Both the position numbers and the translations under genes were made by a program. From Tetraselmis striata (taxonomy: Eukaryota; Chlorophyta; Chlorodendrophyceae; Chlorodendrales; Chlorodendraceae), in contig VCJN01001554.1 of NCBI GenBank assembly GCA_006384855.1, forward strand, positions 1 to 64,000: a DNA stretch of 64,000 nt, in the 5' to 3' direction. This document shows positions 14,208-27,600 of the stretch, piece by piece (within the stretch, counting starts at the first letter, position 1; each line of letters begins with the position of its first letter). Under the pieces are notes generated by a model. The model made no database searches. It was not told where the DNA came from and saw nothing but the letters and a program-made list of their open reading frames with translations.

Positions 14208-16638
14208 CTACATGACGGCCGACACGTTCAGCACCACCGTCGCGATGAGCGCCAGCTGCAGCAGCAGCGGCGCGACAAAGCGCACCCAGGTGGTGTACGG
14301 GATCTTGCCGATCGCGAGCGCCCCCATGAGCACGCCTGACGTGGGCGTCATCAGGTTCACCATGCCCGACGCGCATTGGAAGGCGGTGACCAGCAGGTGG
14401 CGCGCTGCGCCGCTGAAGTCGGCCAGCGGGCTCATGATGGGCATCGTCAGCGTGGCCAGCCCGGAGGAGGAGGGGATAAGCAGCGACAGCAGCACCTGCG
14501 GTGGCACGGCGGGCGGGTGTCTCAGGTCTTCGCAGGGAATCACTTGTTATTCACACAATATTTGGCTTTTCGGAAACGTGAAAGGACGTCATCATCCAGT
14601 GTCTTATTTGTGGATTGGTGTATAATAGCGGTCTCTTGATTCTACGCGACTGTTGGTCCAGGCAAGCGTGCAAGGGCACAGGCCGTAGTGGGGGGGGGGG
14701 GGGGGGGGGCAGCGCCAGCGTCGCACCTGCAGCCAATACGCAGCGTTGATGAACAGCGCGGAGGAGAGGCCGCTCGTGGCGGACGCCATCCAGGACAGCA
14801 CCGTGTCCGTAATCATGCCGTCGTTCATGACGGTCACGATACCCCGCGCAAGCGCAACCACAAACGCGACGCCCAGCAGGTCAGCGCCACCGCGCACCAG
14901 CGTCGACCAGAAGTCCTCCTCATCGCGCTTGTGCAGCACGGCCACGGCGATGGTGGAGGCTGCGGAGGGGCGGATGGGGGGGGGGGGGGGGAGGGGGTCA
15001 CGCATGCCGAAGGAGAGGAGCATGTTGATGCGGTGCTTGATGGGCGATGTAGCCGTCAAAGCAATCACCCTCGTTGCACGGCTTACTGCGTGGCATCTGT
15101 GGCGATGACTTACGTCAAGTCAATGAGCAAATATGACCGCATGCAAATTAATACCCCCCCCCTTTTCACGACATCGGTTGGGGCAATACGTAGGAGGGGG
15201 TAAGGAATTGTACGTTCTACGTTTATATGGCTTTCCTGACACGGGGCGACATGAGATGGTGTCCCCAAGACAGCCTGGAGCTGCTTGTTGGGGTAAAGAT
15301 GCGGAGTAGAAGCAGCCCATGATATAGTGTGATATGAATGGGCCATTGGATACGATGGCTGTATTCTACATTTGATACTGCCCCCGCAAGAACAAGGATG
15401 TGATGGGAGTGTGCTGAAATGCCTGTGGGGTGGGGGTGTTGGTTGCAGTGGGGAATTCAGATGTAGAGGGGGCACCCACCGAAGAACAGCGCGCTCATGT
15501 GGCACATCTCCCACCCGGCGAGAGCCACGCCGTAGATGAGCACGACAAAGGTGGCAGCAAAGATGCCCAGCGTGACGGCCTGCTTGCCGCTCAGCTCGGT
15601 CGCCGCCTCGGCGTCGCCCCCCGCCGCCGTGTCGACCTGAGCTACCTCAGGTGCGGCGATATCCTTGGGCTGCTGCCCCGCCAGCAGTGAGGCAGCAGGG
15701 TCTGCCTTGACGGCCGCGGCGTATCGATAAACGTGCGCCACGCCCGCAGCCCAGCTGAGGCCGAGCACCGCCAGGCGCGGGCCGAGGCCCTCCACGAGCG
15801 GCACGCCCGCGGCCTTGCAGGCGACGATGGTGGCAAAGGGGTTGAGCGTGGAGCCCAGCACGCCCAGCCCCGCGCCCAGCATGACGATGCCCACAGCGGT
15901 AAGGCTGTCGTAGCCCGCGCGGACCATCACGGGAATGAGGATGCCGTAGAACGGGATGGTCTCCTCCGCCATGCCGAACGCGGTGCCGCCAGCGCAGAAG
16001 AGGGTCATCAAAATGGGGATGAGCAGCGGCTCCCGCCCGCGCAGCGCGCTCACGGCGCGCCCGATGCCGGCGTCGATGGCGCCCGTGCGCGTGACGGTGG
16101 CTAGAAAGCCGCCGATCATGAGCAGGAACATGGTGATGTCCGACGTCGCATAGAAGCCCGCGATGGGCGCCAGCAGCACGGCAGCCAGACCCTGCGGGGA
16201 GGGAGCCACGGGGGCGTAGGTTCCCGGCACGGGCACCGTCCGCCCCAGCGCCTGGCTCATCACCCGCTCATACTCCCCTGCCGGGATTACCCACGTCGCG
16301 ACCGCCACAAGCGCGATAAGGCCGAGCAGCGTGGAGTAGGCGGTGGGGAACTTGAACCCGCCGGCCGCCTCCCCTGCATTATCGCCCGCTGTCTCCTCGC
16401 CCTCGGAGTCGCTGGATGTGGCAGCCGCAGCAACAGGTTTGAGTAACCGTCTCGTGGATGCTGTTGTTGGCCTGCAACTCGCGGCAGACGGGGGCGCGCA
16501 GCAGGGCAGGGGCAGCGCAACGGCGCGGCTCGTCGGGGAAGCGAGACGAGATGGGGCGCGCGCGGGCCGCCGCCCGACCGCCCGACCGAGGCGCAGCCGC
16601 GCGTGGGACGTAGCGACCGTGGAGTGCGTCGTCCGCAT
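14208..16638 (-). CDS. YfcC/DcuC-type carboxylate or amino-acid carrier, organelle presequence (copy 1)
   Basis: A bacterial-type secondary transporter (C4-dicarboxylate anaerobic carrier superfamily, YfcC-like, related to arginine/ornithine exchangers). Exons on the minus strand: 16638-15480, 14959-14727, 14495-14208, total 559 residues. The first 85 or so residues are Arg/Ala/Ser-rich and look like a transit peptide. The carrier starts at FPTAYSTLLGL, then TWVIPAGEY, GGF...TRTGAIDAGIG, AFGMAEETIPFYG, LGSTLNPFATIVA in the first half. GGADLLGVAFVVALARGI, IPSSSGLATLTMPIMSPLADF and LMTPTSGVLMGALAIG follow in the second half, so all family blocks are present. About twelve membrane segments are expected. 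The substrate cannot be read from sequence. The ATG at 16638 is the first true ATG in frame. Its neighbour at 17.8-20.6 kb is a tandem copy. Confidence 0.88.
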
Positions 16639-17785
16639 CTCAATCACTGGGGGTGTAATCGCGAAGGGGGGCGGCGGTTTGCCGGTTTCGGTCTTCAGCA
16701 GGCAAAGGCGCTGCCCTCGCGCGCTGTGGCACGGGTCACGGGTGTATGTGTACCGCGTGACGCCGATGATGTAGTCGCCTGACTACTGGGACGACCCGTT
16801 GAAGACATATCGCCCCTCCGGCTCGGCGTCGTCGCCAGCGTCGGCGTAAAGTCAATACTTAATAATAAATTGGTACCAGTGCTGGCGGTGTAAAATACAA
16901 ATTGGTCAGTCACAAATCCGCGCCGCAAAAAGCAGTACTAAAAGACCAACGAGGCAACGAGTACAGTACGGGTATATGAGATAGCGACTCTGAGATAATC
17001 CTTCTGTCGTACTGCTACGGGCAGCACGCCACCGCTGCGGGTAGTTTCGGGCACGCTACAACGATTTACTTGCGGCCTTCGTACTCTTATAATACATAGA
17101 CCAAATATACAAATTATATTATGTATGTATCAAAAGGCACAGGCATCCAGAAAAATAAATAAAACACACAGATATGTCAAGGCAGCAAAAATAATAAAAT
17201 ATACACACATATATCGCATCATCGGCAAATCTCATAACGTGCTGAAGTCATGAATGTCCAGCCCCGGCCGCCAAGCTGACAAGTAGCGGCGGAGCCCCCG
17301 CCAGGCATCGCGATTATCGTCCCTGATGGCCTGTGCGCCGATTAGCTACATCACTGCTTGAAAAGTCGCGAAGATAATCGGGCTTTTATAGTTGCAAACT
17401 CAATCTCAGTGAAACATCGGAATGTTGTGCTGTCTCGTACGATACTTATCACTTTCCGATATCGCCTTCTGCTGCTAGCTCATGTAATTCATATACTTAT
17501 CACTTAGGCGATACTCGTACCAGTACGCATGATAATATATCGTACCAGGTAGGTGTCATATCCGCCGGAATTTTACAATGATGACGATGAGGACATGTCA
17601 CTATTGATATCCTGGATCTGTCTCGTGCTGTTTTATCCAGTGAGCCTGCCCGTGTCATTGTGTGCAGATCTATAGTCATAACGTGGAAATATGATGAAAG
17701 TCTACGGTACCGGGGATAAGTGATGCGGCGAGGCAATGCTGGGAAGGGTCGCGGCTGTACTTGGCCAGTGGTCGGAGCTGATGAT
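16639..17785. other. Spacer between the tandem carrier genes
   Basis: This 1.1-kb spacer holds the promoter of copy 1 and the 3' flank of copy 2. The part at 17080-17240 is AT-rich. A TGTAA-type motif on the minus strand lies near 17572-17576, about 210 bases after the copy 2 stop. No gene is recognised. Confidence 0.45.
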
Positions 17786-20622
17786 CTACATGACGACCGA
17801 CACGTTCAGCACTACCGTCGTGATGAGCGATAGCTGCAGCAGCAGTGGCGCGACAAAGCGCACCCAGGTGGTGTATGGGATCTTGCCGATCGCGAGCGCC
17901 CCCATGAGCACGCCTGACGTGGGCGTCATGAGGTTTACTATACCTGACGCGCACTGGAAGGAGGTCACCAGCAGGTGGCGCGCGACGCCACTGAAGTCGG
18001 CCAACGGGCTCATGATGGGCATCGTCAGCATGGCCAACCCGGAGGAGCAGGGGATAAGCAGCGACAGCAGAACCTGCAAGCGCGCACAAGGAGGTGTGTC
18101 AGCCTTCATCGTGCCATTATGTCATCTTAATTATCCGAATCATGCTTGTGTTATTAAATGCGCGTCCCAAAATCCTCTTCCATCAGAATACATCTGTATG
18201 ATTAAATGCAGGAGTCGATCAATGTATCTATTCAACTTGTACAATCATCGTGATTCGCATACATCATTCATGAACATATTGCAACCTTTCTGGGCTGGTT
18301 ATATATTAATGCTTTGCTTAGCCCTTCCCCCACTCACCCTATTCCTCTTGCGAAGAGAGAAATAATTGCATCCTATCACAATACACCATGGATAAAGCAC
18401 GGAATATTCACCTAATGCACATGAGTAAATTCTCTGTTATTTTATCGCCCGCGAACCGACTTAACTGGCACGATAGCATAGTTACAAACTATTTGACGAG
18501 GGAGACAGCATTCATAGGCAAGTAGGGTTGATTATTCAAAGCGTTGAGTATACTCTTTGTGTGTTGTGGTATGCCATTGGATATTTCTATTGTGACACTA
18601 TAAAGCGAGCTCAGTCAGTGGCTCACCTGCACCCAGTACGCGACGTTGATGAACATCGCGGAAGAGAGGCCGCTTGTGGCGGACACCATCCAGGACAGCA
18701 CTATATCGGTGATCATGCCATCGTTCATGACTTTCACAATGCCACTTGCCAGCGCCAATATGAAGGCTACACCCAGAAGGTCTGAACCGCCACGCACCAT
18801 CGTTGCCCAGAAGTCCTCGTCGTTGTGTTTGTGCAGCACAGCCACAGCGATGCTGGAGGCTACAGAAGAAGTTGGGGGGCGGGCAGAGGGAGAGAGGGGG
18901 GGGTATATGAATCTCCTGGACAGTAGGAGACGGCAGGCCCACAAACATCTACATCATAGCATTCGGCATGTCGAATATATTGCTGTGATTTACGTCATGG
19001 CTCCATCACAGTCATGTTTTGGGGGCATGTGTAAGCAATTCTCCCCCCCTCCCCCCCCCACCCCACCGCCTCCCCCCTACCTCTCACCCTGTTTCTTATG
19101 GCAATAATTACTATAGACCCTAGGCTGGTTGATCCAGAGTAAATATTTTGTCCGTCTTTTCACCGCATTTTTGGGGCATTTCACGTGCGCAAACCCCGAG
19201 CGCGGAACCGAGCTATAAATTGCAAGCTACCGGCGCCTGGTACACCGGTACGAGGTACTTAGTACGAGGACATACCGCCGATAACGTTTCCGTATATGGC
19301 ATGAGAATTATGAGTATGACCCGTACTATAGGCTCCGGGCCCCGGGCCGGGCCCGGACAGTTCATGACAACAATAATTATGTTTGGAATGGATGAGACTG
19401 TTCGAAGTCCTGATACGAAAAGGCACTCACCGAAGAACAGCGCGCTCATGTGGCACATCTCCCACCCGGCGAGAGCCACGCCGTAGATTAGCACGACAAA
19501 GGTGGCAGCAAAGATGCCCAGCGTGACGGCCTGCTTGCCGCTCATCTCGGTCGCCTTCTCGGCGTCACCTCCCGCCGCTGTGTCGACCTGAGCTGCCTCA
19601 GGTGCGGCGATTTCCTTGGACTGCTGCCCCGCCAGCAGTGAGGCAGCGGGGTCTGCCTTGACGGCCGCGGCGTATCGATAAACGTGCGCCACGCCCGCAG
19701 CCCAGCTGAGGCCGAGCACCACAAGGCGCGGGCCGACGCCCTCCACGAGCGGCACGCCCGCGGCCTTGCAGGCGACGATGGTGGCAAAGGGATTGAGCGT
19801 GGAGCCCAGCACGCCCAGCCCCGCGCCCAGCATGACGATGCTCACAGCGGTGATACTGTCGTAGCCCGCGCGGACCATCACGGGAATGAGGATGCCGTAG
19901 AACGGGATGGTCTCCTCCGCCATGCCGAACGCGGTGCCGCCAGCGCAGAAGAGGGTCATCAAAATGGGGATGAGCAGCGCCTCGCGCCCGCGCAGCGCGC
20001 TCATGGCTCGGCCGATGCCGGCGTCGATGGCGCCCGTGCGCGTGATGGTGGCCATGAAGCCGCCGATCATGAGCAAGAACATGACGATGTCCGCCGTCGC
20101 GCAGAAGCCGGCAACGGGGGCCAGCAGCACGGCGGCCAGACCCTGCGGGGAGGGAGCCACGAGGGCGTCGGTGCCCGGCACGGGCATCGCCCGCCCCAGC
20201 GCCTGGCTGATCACCCGCCCGTATTCCCCTGCCGGGATTACCCACGTCGCGGCTGCCACAATCACGGTAAGGCCGAGGAGCGTGGAGTAGGCGGTGGGGA
20301 ACTTAAATCCGCCGGCCGCCTCCCCCGCCGCCTCTACTCTCGCCGCCTCCTGGCCCTCCGCATCCGTGGGCGCGTCAGCAGCAGCGGCATGATTACGTAT
20401 CCGCCTCGAGAACGCTGCTGCTGACCTTGGGATCGCGGCAGACCGGGGCGCGCGGCATATTCGGGGCAAGCCGACGTCGTGGCTCGTCGTCGTCGTCGTC
20501 GTCGCCGTTGGGGTAGCGAGACGAGATGGGGCGCGCGCGGGCCGCCGTACGACCGGTCTAACGGGGCGGAGCCGCGTCTGGGGAGCGGCTGCCGCGGAAC
20601 ACGTCAACCGGCTTACTATCAT
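17786..20622 (-). CDS. YfcC/DcuC-type carrier, organelle presequence (copy 2)
   Basis: A tandem duplicate of the carrier at 14.2-16.6 kb, on the same strand, with both introns at the same codons and in the same phases. Exons: 20622-19431, 18859-18627, 18073-17786, total 570 residues. The mature regions differ at scattered positions (for example ARGI in copy 1 is ASGI here, and the FCATADI segment replaces FYATSDI), while presequence and introns have diverged strongly. Both copies keep full reading frames and all family blocks, so both look functional. A true ATG starts the frame at 20622, followed by a long Arg/Ser/Thr-rich presequence of about 100 residues. Intron 1 is longer than in copy 1 (571 against 520 bases) and ends with a C-rich tract. 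Confidence 0.88.
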
Positions 20623-21677
20623 TGTACCGTAGGCGTGGGGGCGACAGCTGTTTGGCGGTTTGGGTATCCAGCAGGCAAAATGGGCCAGCTATGCGCGCTG
20701 GGGCTCGGCCGGTGCTGCTAATAAGACCCGGCGCCGATTACCACCCGCTGCCTCCTCGTGTGGTTGGTTACACGGCGGGGAAGATTTTCGTGTGACACCC
20801 TCCTGCTCGTGGTCGGCGTCAGTGGGAACTTCGCAGTCATAAATAAAGTCGCTGTTCTCGAGATGCGTCGTCATCGGCTCGTCATCATTATTAATTCAGG
20901 GTTTTGGCACCAGTACATTAAGGGTCTTATAGTCGAGGGCTTGTATCCCTCTACTCCACAACTAATCGAACCCAGAAAAAGGGCGGGGGTCCGTTCGGTT
21001 CCTGGCAGCTAAGCGACTTCGTGGTTCCCTTGGCTCCTTATTGGTTCTTGGCTCCCTGTCCTCCTGCTCGACCTTGGTTTCAGGCTGCTTATGTCATCTC
21101 TTTTGCTGGCAACCTTTCATAGTTGCTGTTAGTTCTGTTTCTAGTGCGCATTTTTGAAAGCCCTAATGTAATAGATTAGAATCGAACCCTCATCATACGG
21201 GTACCCATCCGTCGTCTCCTGCTGCTGCGCTGCGATTTTGCTGCTGGAGCAGCGCAGGGCCGCCGAGCACAGCGGCCGATATTATAGATCAGTCACGATG
21301 GTCGCCGTTGTAACCAAAAAGAATTCGTATGGTTGCCGTTGGTCGGCGCATATCAGGGAAGTGCCGACGTACACAGCGCGTTGATAGCCCCTCGGCCTGT
21401 AAACTGTGGCCACCCGAGCCAGCGATTCTGCTAGCGCCACTGCAGCATCTAAGCTACCTGGCACCGTACGGTGAGGCCTGCCGCCAGTGCCCGCACACCG
21501 AGGAGCGCATTCTCACCGCACCGGCGATAGTCTATTATCTACCGGGAATTGTTGCGTGTTAAAATCGCTGGCAGGGGTGTGTTTCGCCGCCGCTCTAACT
21601 AACTTGTATGCCCCCGTCGCCCCGTTCCCCATCTATCCTCCTCGGGCCCCCAGTTATTGTCCCCAACCAGCAGAGAA
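20623..21677. promoter_or_regulatory. Divergent intergenic region, likely bidirectional promoter
   Basis: One kilobase separates the start codon of carrier copy 2 (minus) from that of the HCF173-like gene (plus). Both core promoters must lie here or nearby. I could not recognise a specific box or an additional gene. Confidence 0.4.
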
Positions 21678-24600
21678 ATGGCTAGCGTCACGGCGATCAG
21701 CCACTTCGTAAGTTTCCGCGCGCCTGCACCGAGGCGGCGCGCGATCCTGCGCCCCCGCTGCTTCGCCAGCGGACTCCCCCTTCCGGCGCCGCATCACCAC
21801 CGCCTCGAGGTTGGACCCGCCAAGACAAATCTCGTTGATCCCTCTGCACTTGTCAGCGAGGCTCCCCGCACTCCCAGCCCTATTTCAGTGCGCACAGCCT
21901 GTTCCGTCCGCGGCCCCGCATTGGCACAGCCACCCCCTGGGGATGGGCCAGCGGTGGCGCAGCTGTGTAGGGAGTAGTCAAACCGGGCGATGCGGCGAGC
22001 GGCTCAGCCCCGACGGCCCCACCGCCGGAACTCAGAATCAGTGGCAGATTCTCGGACCCCAAACCAATTTCGCACGTGGTGTACACCTGCCATTAGTAGC
22101 CCTTGGGCACACACCCACTTAGTCCATGACCTCCCCCCCCCCCCCCTGCCCCCCACGCGCCCTGTCCCCTGGCGGAGACTACACCAATCGCCACTTGGCC
22201 GGGTGTGCAGTCACATCACCGAGTGGGGCGAAGTCGTGCCCTTCTCCAATCGCTGCCTACAGTGATTTATTACACCGCTTGGCATGTTACGTCTCCTCTC
22301 ACTCCCTCTCCCTCTCTGGAACCGACTTCGAGTTATACCGCTTGCTGACCTGGGGCCCTCACATGCCCAAAGCCAAGTTGCCCCAACATACATCCCCAAA
22401 TGGCTGCTGGCAATACCCCGCCACCTCCGAGCTGAAACTCCGATGCCTCCCCATCCGCCCCTACCTAGCCCCCCCTTCCCCTGCGAAAGAGAATGCACCC
22501 GTCATTCGTACTCATCACTCCCTTCATGATTGCGCAGGTCCGCGGCCGTCCCAGGTTGGCTCCGCCCCGTGCCGCTGCTGCCCCGGCCGGCCTTGCCGCG
22601 CTGGCCGCCTTGCTGCCGCCGGGAGCCCTGGCCGCCGCAGCTGTGGTGGTGCTGGGCGCTGCCGCCGCAGGCGCCGCCATGGCGATGCGCGGCGCGGACG
22701 GCGACAAGGCCGAGGAGGGTGGCGTGGCCGAGGGACGCGCGGAGGTGGTGCCAAAGGACGCAGTACTGGTGGCGGGCGCGACGGGGCAGCTGGGCGCGGA
22801 GGTGGTGGGCGCGCTGCTGGCGGCGGGCGCGCAGGTGGTGGCGGCCGGCCGGCAGGCGAGCGCGGGCGAGCTGGAGGCCGCGCTGGCGGCGCGAGGCCTC
22901 GCCCCCGGCCCGGCACCCTCCGGCGGCTACCTGCACCTCGCGCCCGGCACGGACATCGCGGACCCCGGCAGCCTGAGCGCCGACCTGTTCCGCGGCGTCA
23001 CGGCGGTGGTGGCGGCGGTGGGCCCGCGCTTTGGCAAGCAGGCCGACGGCAGCATGGGGTGCGCACCGCTGCCCCCCCCCCCCCCCCCCCCCCCCACCCT
23101 CAACACCCTGCAGCTCACCGCCCGCCCAATGCTCCCATGCGCCAGGCATCTAATGCCAATGGCTTGATGCGGTGGTCCTTTTCTTTGGCAGCTTTAGGTT
23201 GCGCATGTCAGGTAGGCAAAACCGCGCCGACAAGGTAGCTGCTATTTGTATCTGTAGAGCTTGAGTTGCGGGCCCTGCGGTGAGTGCTTAGTCGCAAACA
23301 TGCACAACCCTAGTTGGCGAGTGCAAATGCTGATGGGGTGAGGAAGGGTCAGCGACCCCTTTTTTATAACCTAGCAGGGGAAGAGAGGGGGGCAGGGGGA
23401 AAAGGGTGGAGCTCGGGGGGGGGGGGGGGGGGGGGGGAAGGGGGAAGGGTGTCTTCTCTGCTGCTTGGGATGGATGGTCTGAGGTCCGGCTGCCCTGTGA
23501 TGCGGCGACGCAGGTTTGCCGCCGGGAGCAGCCCGGCTGAGGTGGACTCTGCCGGCGTGGCGGCGCTGGTGGCGGCGGCCGCAGAGCACCTACCGGCCAC
23601 TGGCAGCGGCAGCAAGGAGGTGCTGAGCATGCGGAGCGCGGAGGACCTGGAGGTGCGCCACACCGCCGCCACACACCCCCTTCTGCGCGCCGTCCACTAT
23701 TGCTCTGGTGGCCCCGTTCCAGTCGCCGTACCTCCCCCCCTGGTGGGCTAGTGCCACCTTCATCTTCCTCCTTTCTACATCGGAGTTGAGTTAAAGTGCA
23801 TTGGTGGGCGCGTTAAGGGTGGACACTCGGCGCTTCACCTCGCCTCCTGAACCGTTATCACTACCCAAGTTTGGCGAATATACTATCACTGCGTTGTATC
23901 GCCGTGTCATGTAGACTGCGTTCTGTCATTGCCGCTCCTCGCATCTACTGCAGCGCCCTGTGGTGCGTGCTCAGCTTCTAGAACGCCGTGCTTCAGTCCC
24001 CGCACCGGCGAGGGTGCACGCACGCCATTGCAATCATGGGAAATACAGCAAGCCGCCCTCACTGCCCTTGCATCGAGAACCGGAAATGCCAACAGCCGAG
24101 CGACATCACCCATTACCATTTGGTCATCATGGTATTTGAACATGACAGAGGGAGAGAGAGAGACAGAGACAGAGAGAGAGAGAAAGATTTTCGGGGGGAC
24201 GGGGAGGGGGGTTCAACGTGGCGATGATAAGTCGCCCTATTCATTACCACTGCATTCTCCGCACTTCTTCTGTTATGCACCCGCCTATGAACCCAAACTT
24301 GCGTACTGAATCCACTTGGTCCGGGGTATCCACAGTAGGATGGCACATAACGCACCTGCCATGCGCTGGCAGGGTAGTCCACATGCGGATACTGACGTGA
24401 TTGGACAGCACCCGAATGGCCCCCACGCAGTGCCTACTCACCAACAGGGCCCATTTGGTTGCACGTAGCTCGTGGGGCACAGTGTGCAGACCCACCCCCT
24501 CTCAAGCTCTGGTTTAGAATGGCTGTGAGAACCACAGGAGATGTGCGGGAGGTATGTGTGTGTGTGTGTACACAGCAAATGTGACACTGTTTCAGCATTG

Positions 24601-27600
24601 CACTCCCACGCCCACCGCTGTCTTCGTCTCCCTACGCAGCGCAGTGCGCGCGCCGCTAGTCCAGGACCTGAGTGCTCGACCTAGTCTTTGTGCTCAGGGT
24701 GCCCTCGCCCCTGAGCGGCCCGGATCCAGCCGCGCACACCCTGCGCGCACACATCGGCATCCCCGTGAGGATGGTGGGGTATCGGCAACGATGCTTTGGT
24801 GTCTGCATGCGCGGCACATCCGCGGCCCCGCTCACTTTTCGTTCGTCATGGTGTTGACGTAGTCTGTCCGGCGGATGGACTGAATCAGCAGGTCCACCTC
24901 CTCGCGCAGCACGAACTTCTTTGTGTACGCGAGCTGGTTGTACTCGCAGTCGCCCGGCTTGTACGCGCTGTAGGCTTGGTCTGTACGCATAGAGGCGGGA
25001 CGGCATATGCATCGACATAACAGTCCAGTAAAGTCTATGATAAATCCATGGCATACCTGCTGCTAGGTGGGCGGTGCCTAAGCAGCCATGCAGATGCTGG
25101 CGGCGCGGCGCATACCGGTCGACACCAGTCTCAGGGGGAAGCCTGTGAGCGGGTCCTTGAGCTTATCCCCCGAGTGGGCAGTCACCAGCGTGGCGCCAGA
25201 CACGGGGCTGACCACCTTCCGCAGCCCGATGTGTGGTTTGTTCCCCTGCGTCACGAAATCATTGGCAATGTCTGGGTTTTTAGTGGAACCCCGAATCCTC
25301 CCAGAATGACGACTCCTCGATTTCAGGCGGTCGTTTTCTAGCGGTACAGTTTCCGCTCGCAAGCAAGCTTCGCGCGAGATTGGGAAGTTCTTGGCATGGA
25401 GTGGGCACTCACAGTCCCCGCGGGGCCCGCCATGGAGTATGCGGTCCGCCCAGCGCGCTCGTGGTCCCACTCGTACTTGGTCGACATTGCGCCGGTCCGG
25501 GCGCTGTGCAGATCCGCGCGGCCGTACAGCCGAATAGTCGTCGGTAACGCGCGGCGCCTCTCAGTCGCCGACCTGGACGATGCTAAGCGCCCCGACCCTA
25601 AGCGACTGCAAGCAGCTGTCGCGGAATCTGACGGTAGAGGGCGATCGTAGAGTCTGCCGAGTCTCTGTGCTGGTAGAAAACGTCTACGGGCGCAGTCGAT
25701 GCGTCGTTCACGACCGCTCGTGTCGCATGTTTCTGACGGGGTTCCGCTTCGGGCGCATGCCGGCCCGGCGGCGGGGTCTGCTCGTGCTAGTTTTGCTCAT
25801 CCGTATACTACATGTACCGCCTGCGTACCTAGTACAGGTACAGTACAGATTTAAGCTAGTCCCTATCTGAAACCCAATATTTATACCGCGCACGTGTTCG
25901 CGTACCCGCTCGTACACATCATAAATTCCGTACGTACCGGTACGTTAGCTGGCAACATACTACAGGCGTCAAAGTAATGAACGGGTGGGTCTTACTCCAT
26001 CTCCATCTATCTACAGCATCTATTGTGCCGTAATCCTATAACATCCTTACCCATTAATCGCTACGTAGGATTAATCGTTTCGTCCACCTCTCACTGCTAC
26101 CTGGAGTATTCTTGCACGTATGATGTAGCGACTATGGGTGTGAAGAATTGAAGCAACTCCCCGGCACAATGGCATTATCTGACCATATCTTCCAGTGGTC
26201 CAATATAAGTTGAACTAGTACCGGAGCGGGTACCAACATTTCGAAGCAAGTGCCGATTCAAAGGATGGAAAGGGCGCATTAGATGACCCCGTGCCCCAAA
26301 AGTGTCAAGGTTCTTACAAGTGCGCCGGCACCCATGGTATCTATGCCAGTGTGAATGGACAGAGAGAGAGAGAGAGAGGGAGAGAGAGAGATGCCAGTCC
26401 ATGGGGTGTTCGTTGCTAAATCGATGAATGAATTATTGTATGTGTGTAATGGGCTAGCACTCCTGGTATTGCTAAGTAGTTTGGCATCCATGTCCAATCC
26501 ATCACGTGCGCAGACATTCTGACTGTGTTTGCATACTGTGCTCAACTGCCAGTCAAAGGTCAACTTACATTGCAATTGCATGAGTGCTACACAACACAGG
26601 GCGTCACTGCTACGTCGCATGCCAACTGATAGACAGGATATCAGCTGCCCAAACATACGCTGACGTCATGTGCCGTGTTTGCCCCCGCCCAGACCTGGCG
26701 CCGCCTGGACGATGTCATCATGGGCGGCCAGTCGTCCTCCGTCATGGCGCTCGCAGAGGCGGGCGGAGAAGGCACCGCCGTGTGGACCGGCAATCTCATC
26801 CTCGAGGTGCGATCATGCCCCCCCCCCTCCCCCCCCTCCTCTCCACTGGAGTCCCACCGAGTTGGATCCCGAGAATAAACATGCCGCCATGAAGTTTAAG
26901 GATGCATATACACGGGACTACACGCAGTTGGAGGCAGTACAGATGCCGACCCACCTTGAAGAACCCTAATAAGCCTCGAATTGCGCTTGCGCATAACCTA
27001 TCAGACCATCCGTTCTGCTTTCGCTATAGTGCCTCCGTCTTCATTTGACACCTCACAGGCGGGTCAGGTTCTCATTCGCAGTGTCCTCATCCCCGCGTCG
27101 GCACCCGTGGTGACACCGTCAGGTGCGAGCTCGGCTCACGCTCCGGTATCCGACGTGCGTGTAGCGGTGTGCGGACACTGTGAGTCAGTGGCTGCAGTGT
27201 GTTTCTGGAATACAGCAAGCAGAGTTTGTCTCCGGTGGTTGAGACTGTCGTTACATACTGTCCATGAGAAATAGATGTGAATTAATGAATCAACGTAGGA
27301 TGTAATGGCCAATATGCGCCATATAAGTGGAGCAGGTGCACCTTGCGGGCAGTAAGTGAGAGTAAGAGTGTGAGCCATAATTCGTACCGGTAGTTTCTAC
27401 CTCGCACGACATCATTTGGATAGACTGCTAGTAGTGATTCGCAGTGCATTCCTAGTACTTTACCCCCCCCCCCCCCCTGTTTAGCTGAAATGGTCCGAGC
27501 CCTGCGCGTAGGCGTTCATGCTCACCCACGTTACGCCATGTCTTGGCGCACCCCCCCTGGTCTGAGCTGACACGCGGACCGCGCGCAGGGTGGCGGCTTC

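Follow-up and report, generated by a model that had tools for sequence, protein, structure and literature searches.

The locus described here raises the question of whether an open frame on the minus strand (24832..25487), enclosed by an intron of a plus-strand gene, is a protein-coding gene in its own right or whether its coding appearance is incidental. The frame was analyzed within a stretch of 64,000 nucleotides of Tetraselmis striata DNA (hereafter the window). When the minus strand was read with the exons joined, an ATG, three exons and a stop codon gave a coding sequence of 354 nt including the stop, with two introns of the GT-AG type and splice phases that agree (0 after codon 25, then 1 after codon 68; Table 1). 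The initial annotation had described a complete antisense gene of three exons, and its ATG, stop, outer coordinates, phases and splice sites were all found to be exact; the length of the product had to be corrected from 115 residues to 117. No in-frame ATG was found 5′ of this start before a stop located approximately 103–104 codons upstream, and in a second haplotype (see below) a 1-nt insertion shifts the frame upstream of the ATG. A longer N-terminus was consequently rejected, even though the upstream frame is open, and the ATG at 25487 is the likely start of the nested gene. A 14-nt direct repeat (93%) was also noticed between part of exon 2 (25172–25185) and the start of intron 1 (25399–25412), which is perhaps due to chance.

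Table 1. Coordinates of the nested gene, its host and neighboring features in the window.
Feature	Position	Strand	Remarks
Nested gene, exon 1	25413..25487	-	75 nt, 25 codons, ATG at 25487; GC3 22/25
Nested gene, intron 1	25246..25412	-	167 nt, GTGAGT...ACGCAG
Nested gene, exon 2	25116..25245	-	130 nt; GC3 36/43; 0 mismatches between haplotypes
Nested gene, intron 2	24981..25115	-	135 nt, GTATGC...GTACAG
Nested gene, exon 3	24832..24980	-	149 nt with TGA stop; GC3 43/48
Candidate promoter, TATA-box-like TATAAATA	25878..25885	-	approximately 400 nt upstream of the nested ATG
Host exon, start of NAD-binding (NmrA/Epimerase-like) domain	22538..23058	+	domain match below Pfam cut-offs
Host exon directly 5′ of the enclosing intron	23514..23652	+	modeled exon
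Host intron holding the nested gene	23653..26692	+	3,040 nt
Host exon directly 3′ of the enclosing intron, where the CIA30 domain begins	26693..26806	+	modeled exon
Low-divergence island between haplotypes	24471..25720		8 mismatches/1250 nt vs 83/1790 nt elsewhere in the host intron; edges picked after inspection of the data

The joined exons modeled for the host gene were translated, and the product matched the Pfam family CIA30 (PF08547) with an E-value of 1.8e-32. This domain is flanked by NAD-binding matches, NmrA before it (5.8e-5) and NAD_binding_10 after it (2.5e-4), both of them below the Pfam curated cut-offs. A CIA30 domain placed between NAD-binding segments is what we take to be the layout of HCF173. 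The host is therefore best described as a putative HCF173-like gene of the CIA30/NAD-binding type, as had been proposed initially; its likeness to HCF173 lies in the CIA30 domain with partial NAD-binding matches on both sides, and it may encode HCF173 itself or another CIA30/NAD-binding protein. Further places encoding CIA30 are present elsewhere in the assembly, and CIA30 matches of equal score were observed on contigs C1701 and C1745. A TGTAA motif lies 183 nt 3′ of the host stop, which, like the type of the host gene, is in keeping with a green alga. The coding part of the nested gene was found wholly within a single intron of this host. The enclosing intron had been presented as the third one, of 3.0 kb and on the opposite strand; size and strand were borne out, whereas its rank as "third" holds only with one more host exon upstream of those modeled. 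HCF173 has been reported to bind the psbA 5′ UTR and to be needed for the initiation of psbA translation (PMC7076361).

The nested gene is more than a chance open frame. The GC contents of its codon positions 1, 2, and 3 were 0.57, 0.45, and 0.86, against 0.71, 0.53, and 0.88 in a training set of 1,338 codons taken from the host and other genes of the window, and the overall GC contents of its two introns were 0.53 and 0.56. As controls for GC3, 118 stop-free windows of 43 codons were drawn from presumed noncoding DNA of the host and its surroundings. One of these 118 equaled exon 2 (36/43), the others did not exceed 34/43, and none reached the proportion of exon 3. The excess of GC3 over the mean of GC1 and GC2 was 0.28, 0.28, and 0.48 in the three exons and 0.36 in the whole nested frame; its maximum in the control windows was 0.27, with none at 0.3.

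A dynamic-programming gene finder was also run on the minus strand of the host intron under three intron penalties, using as null 200 dinucleotide-shuffled strands per penalty. The real strand scored 17.9, 13.1, and 11.1, and the maxima of the shuffled strands were 9.4, 6.8, and 6.3, none of the 200 reaching the real score at any penalty. The nested stop belonged to the best models throughout, as did portions of exons 1 and 3. Their optimum differed from the exact three-exon model, with exon 2 skipped under both higher penalties; under the lowest one exon 2 was shortened, exon 1 was extended and a far upstream exon was added. Since the best models deviate in this way, the test backs the presence of a gene here but not each exact boundary. 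When eight other stretches of the window were scored on both strands, seven of them gave no more than 7.0; the minus strand of stretch 17000–19150 outscored the nested gene (19.9–20.8), and real unmodeled exons may lie inside it.

Other open frames on the minus strand of the window gave domain matches. Two similar neighboring frames (15460–16782 and 19216–20688) matched DcuC (PF03606), with E-values of 3e-54 and 2.9e-54, and constitute a pair of C4-dicarboxylate anaerobic carrier matches; this carrier family is mostly bacterial. Another frame (1505–2575) matched a Pif1 2B domain and UvrD_C_2, and it may belong to a Helitron-like element or to a Pif1 helicase of the organism itself.

In its alignment with the window, contig C1741 behaved as a diverged haplotype, the blocks being collinear and 89–98% identical, and the assembly appears to keep both haplotypes as separate contigs (C1256 and C1741; C1701 and C1745). 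The start and stop codons, the splice sites and the reading frame of the nested gene are all retained in the C1741 allele. The flanking DNA of the host intron carries indels, whereas neither nested allele shows a frameshift, a premature stop or the loss of a splice site. The alleles differ at four coding sites, two of them nonsynonymous (T15S and N115S) and two synonymous (codons 25 and 85), which are too few for a selection test. Across its 656 nt the nested gene contained 7 mismatches and no gap, compared with 84 mismatches over the remaining 2,384 nt of the host intron (Fisher p 6e-4). This comparison was extended with sliding 656-nt windows (n = 9,661) over the haplotype alignment of approximately 10.3 kb. 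Gap-free windows as good as the nested gene amounted to 205 of the 9,661, all of them starting between 24705 and 24909. Judged by mismatches alone, 943 of the 9,661 were as good, 933 of which start between 24273 and 25209 and the other 10 between 29056 and 29107, over a host exon. The minimum, 3 mismatches, was reached by windows starting at 24419–24452, which extend into exon 3 and lie mostly downstream of the nested gene. The nested gene thus sits in the least diverged part of a haplotype comparison of approximately 10 kb.

This similarity was rejected as proof of coding constraint, since conservation between haplotypes is as high in the nested introns (3 differences in 302 sites) as in the exons (4 in 354). 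Equally low divergence would be expected from gene conversion or from a haplotype shared locally. In the 250 nt at 24471–24720, 3′ of the nested stop, there were 0 substitutions between haplotypes and 49 gap columns.

The whole assembly (224 Mb, 2,903 contigs) was searched, and the nested sequence was detected at only two places, the window and the C1741 haplotype, with no paralogue or second locus. Since it occurs only there, the nested gene does not have the appearance of a transposon or a repeat. Its product matched no family of Pfam, NCBIfam or PHROGs at E-values up to 10. Among PDB sequences the best match was cytochrome c1 (8smr_J), with which it has a short DPLTG-PL stretch in common; at an E-value of 0.15 this match is not significant, and kinship was rejected in favor of chance. 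The product of exon 3 alone gave 0 matches in the PDB, and that of exons 2 and 3 gave non-significant ones (E-values of 0.21 and 1.5). Scans with peptide patterns yielded 2 and 15 pattern matches in viral contigs and 15 in contigs of prokaryote genomes, none of them a relative of the nested product; such collections are an unlikely home for an algal gene, short exact patterns miss diverged homologues, and records near the source may have been left out of them. These results agree with the initial annotation in leaving the protein unplaced, and nothing in the collections searched, which comprised these family libraries, PDB sequences and viral and prokaryotic contigs, pointed toward ciliates. 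Several small ciliary proteins were considered in view of the aromatic and basic composition of the product, but none is put forward. The segment GDCEYNQLAYTKKFVLREEV, which had been thought conserved in character, could not be demonstrated to be so: it is without homologue in the collections searched, and although its residues are the same in both alleles (with one synonymous change, at codon 85), so is all of the protein except two residues.

The nested product has a calculated mass of 13.0 kDa, a pI of 9.0 and a hydropathy of -0.58, being therefore basic and hydrophilic. Its exon-3 part was modeled from the single sequence as one long helix (residues 8–46 of 48), with modest confidence (mean pLDDT 68.7, pTM 0.33).

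Signals for expression were looked for around the coding part. The TATAAA core of the candidate promoter (Table 1) is found in the second haplotype at a nearly equal distance from the nested ATG. Between the nested stop and the nearer end of the host intron, neither TGTAA, the usual polyadenylation motif of green algae, nor AATAAA was found. In the chlorophytes covered by a study of polyadenylation signals, UGUAA was reported no farther than 50 nt from the cleavage site in about 60% of transcripts on average (PMC1868727), so that its absence weighs only mildly against the nested gene. A search of the host intron against Rfam gave no match at E-values up to 1, and a known structured RNA in the intron was rejected accordingly.

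Considering these results together, the nested gene is very probably an independent protein-coding nuclear gene, present at a single locus and lying antisense inside one intron of the HCF173-like host. It would be transcribed from its own promoter, perhaps that containing the TATA-like element near 25880, and spliced to an mRNA of three exons, whose translation would give a basic, presumably soluble 13 kDa protein with a helical C-terminal third. This protein would act in a process of its own, and the location shared with the host would be mainly positional. It is unlikely, in our judgment, that the antisense gene is instead a cis regulator of the HCF173-like host, one that collides with, induces or alters the transcription or splicing of the host, the pair being co-regulated, a possibility raised in the initial annotation. 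The geometry, with the nested gene wholly inside a 3-kb intron and on the other strand, would allow it, and a nested antisense gene of Caenorhabditis elegans has been reported to induce its host (PMC12274878). Such a role, on the other hand, needs no full protein-coding structure, and according to the same report opposite nested pairs are on average less coexpressed than neighboring non-nested genes (PMC12274878). Even less credit can be given to a more elaborate proposal, in which a new, lineage-restricted gene would tune the HCF173-like host by antisense transcription, and so possibly the synthesis of the photosystem II protein D1, the two being connected through their position.

There is slighter probability still that the locus gives rise to a non-coding antisense RNA that is structured or regulatory, or is a conserved regulatory element, in which the open frame is incidental. 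Within the low-divergence island, the introns and flanks differ between haplotypes as little as the exons do, which is consistent with this explanation; against it are the GC3 values of the three exons, each comparable to that of the training genes and rarely seen in the controls, the frame that is intact in both alleles and the negative result with Rfam in the host intron. Least probable of all is that the frame arose by chance in intron DNA or is what remains of a dead gene. The missing homologue in the collections searched, the missing polyadenylation motif downstream of the nested stop and the one control window of 118 that equals exon 2 in GC3 would fit such an origin, but no shuffled strand among the 200 per penalty was comparable, none of the 118 control windows matched the GC3 of exon 3, and both alleles have escaped frameshifts, stops and splice-site losses despite the indels in the flanking host intron.

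If the independent protein-coding gene is expressed, it would enlarge the algal gene set by a small unplaced protein and provide a further nested antisense pair, of a kind that may be missed in annotation since the region looks like a host intron. It would also supply a specific case for testing interference with the gene of a likely chloroplast translation factor. The literature searched contained no paper on nested genes of green algae by title. The opposite-strand nested arrangement itself is common in complex genomes and ordinary: several hundred such pairs are reported in many animals, and 567 opposite-strand nested protein-coding pairs in C. elegans, ceh-10 in polq-1 among them (PMC12274878). 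According to a suggestion by the authors of that report, induction of the host by the nested gene is likelier than the reverse (PMC12274878). The C. elegans pairs are animal ones, whereas the present pair is algal, known here from sequence alone, and its host is a gene for a chloroplast-type protein. The nested gene and ceh-10 in polq-1 are alike in their organization, each being a complete coding gene that occupies one intron of a host on the opposite strand.
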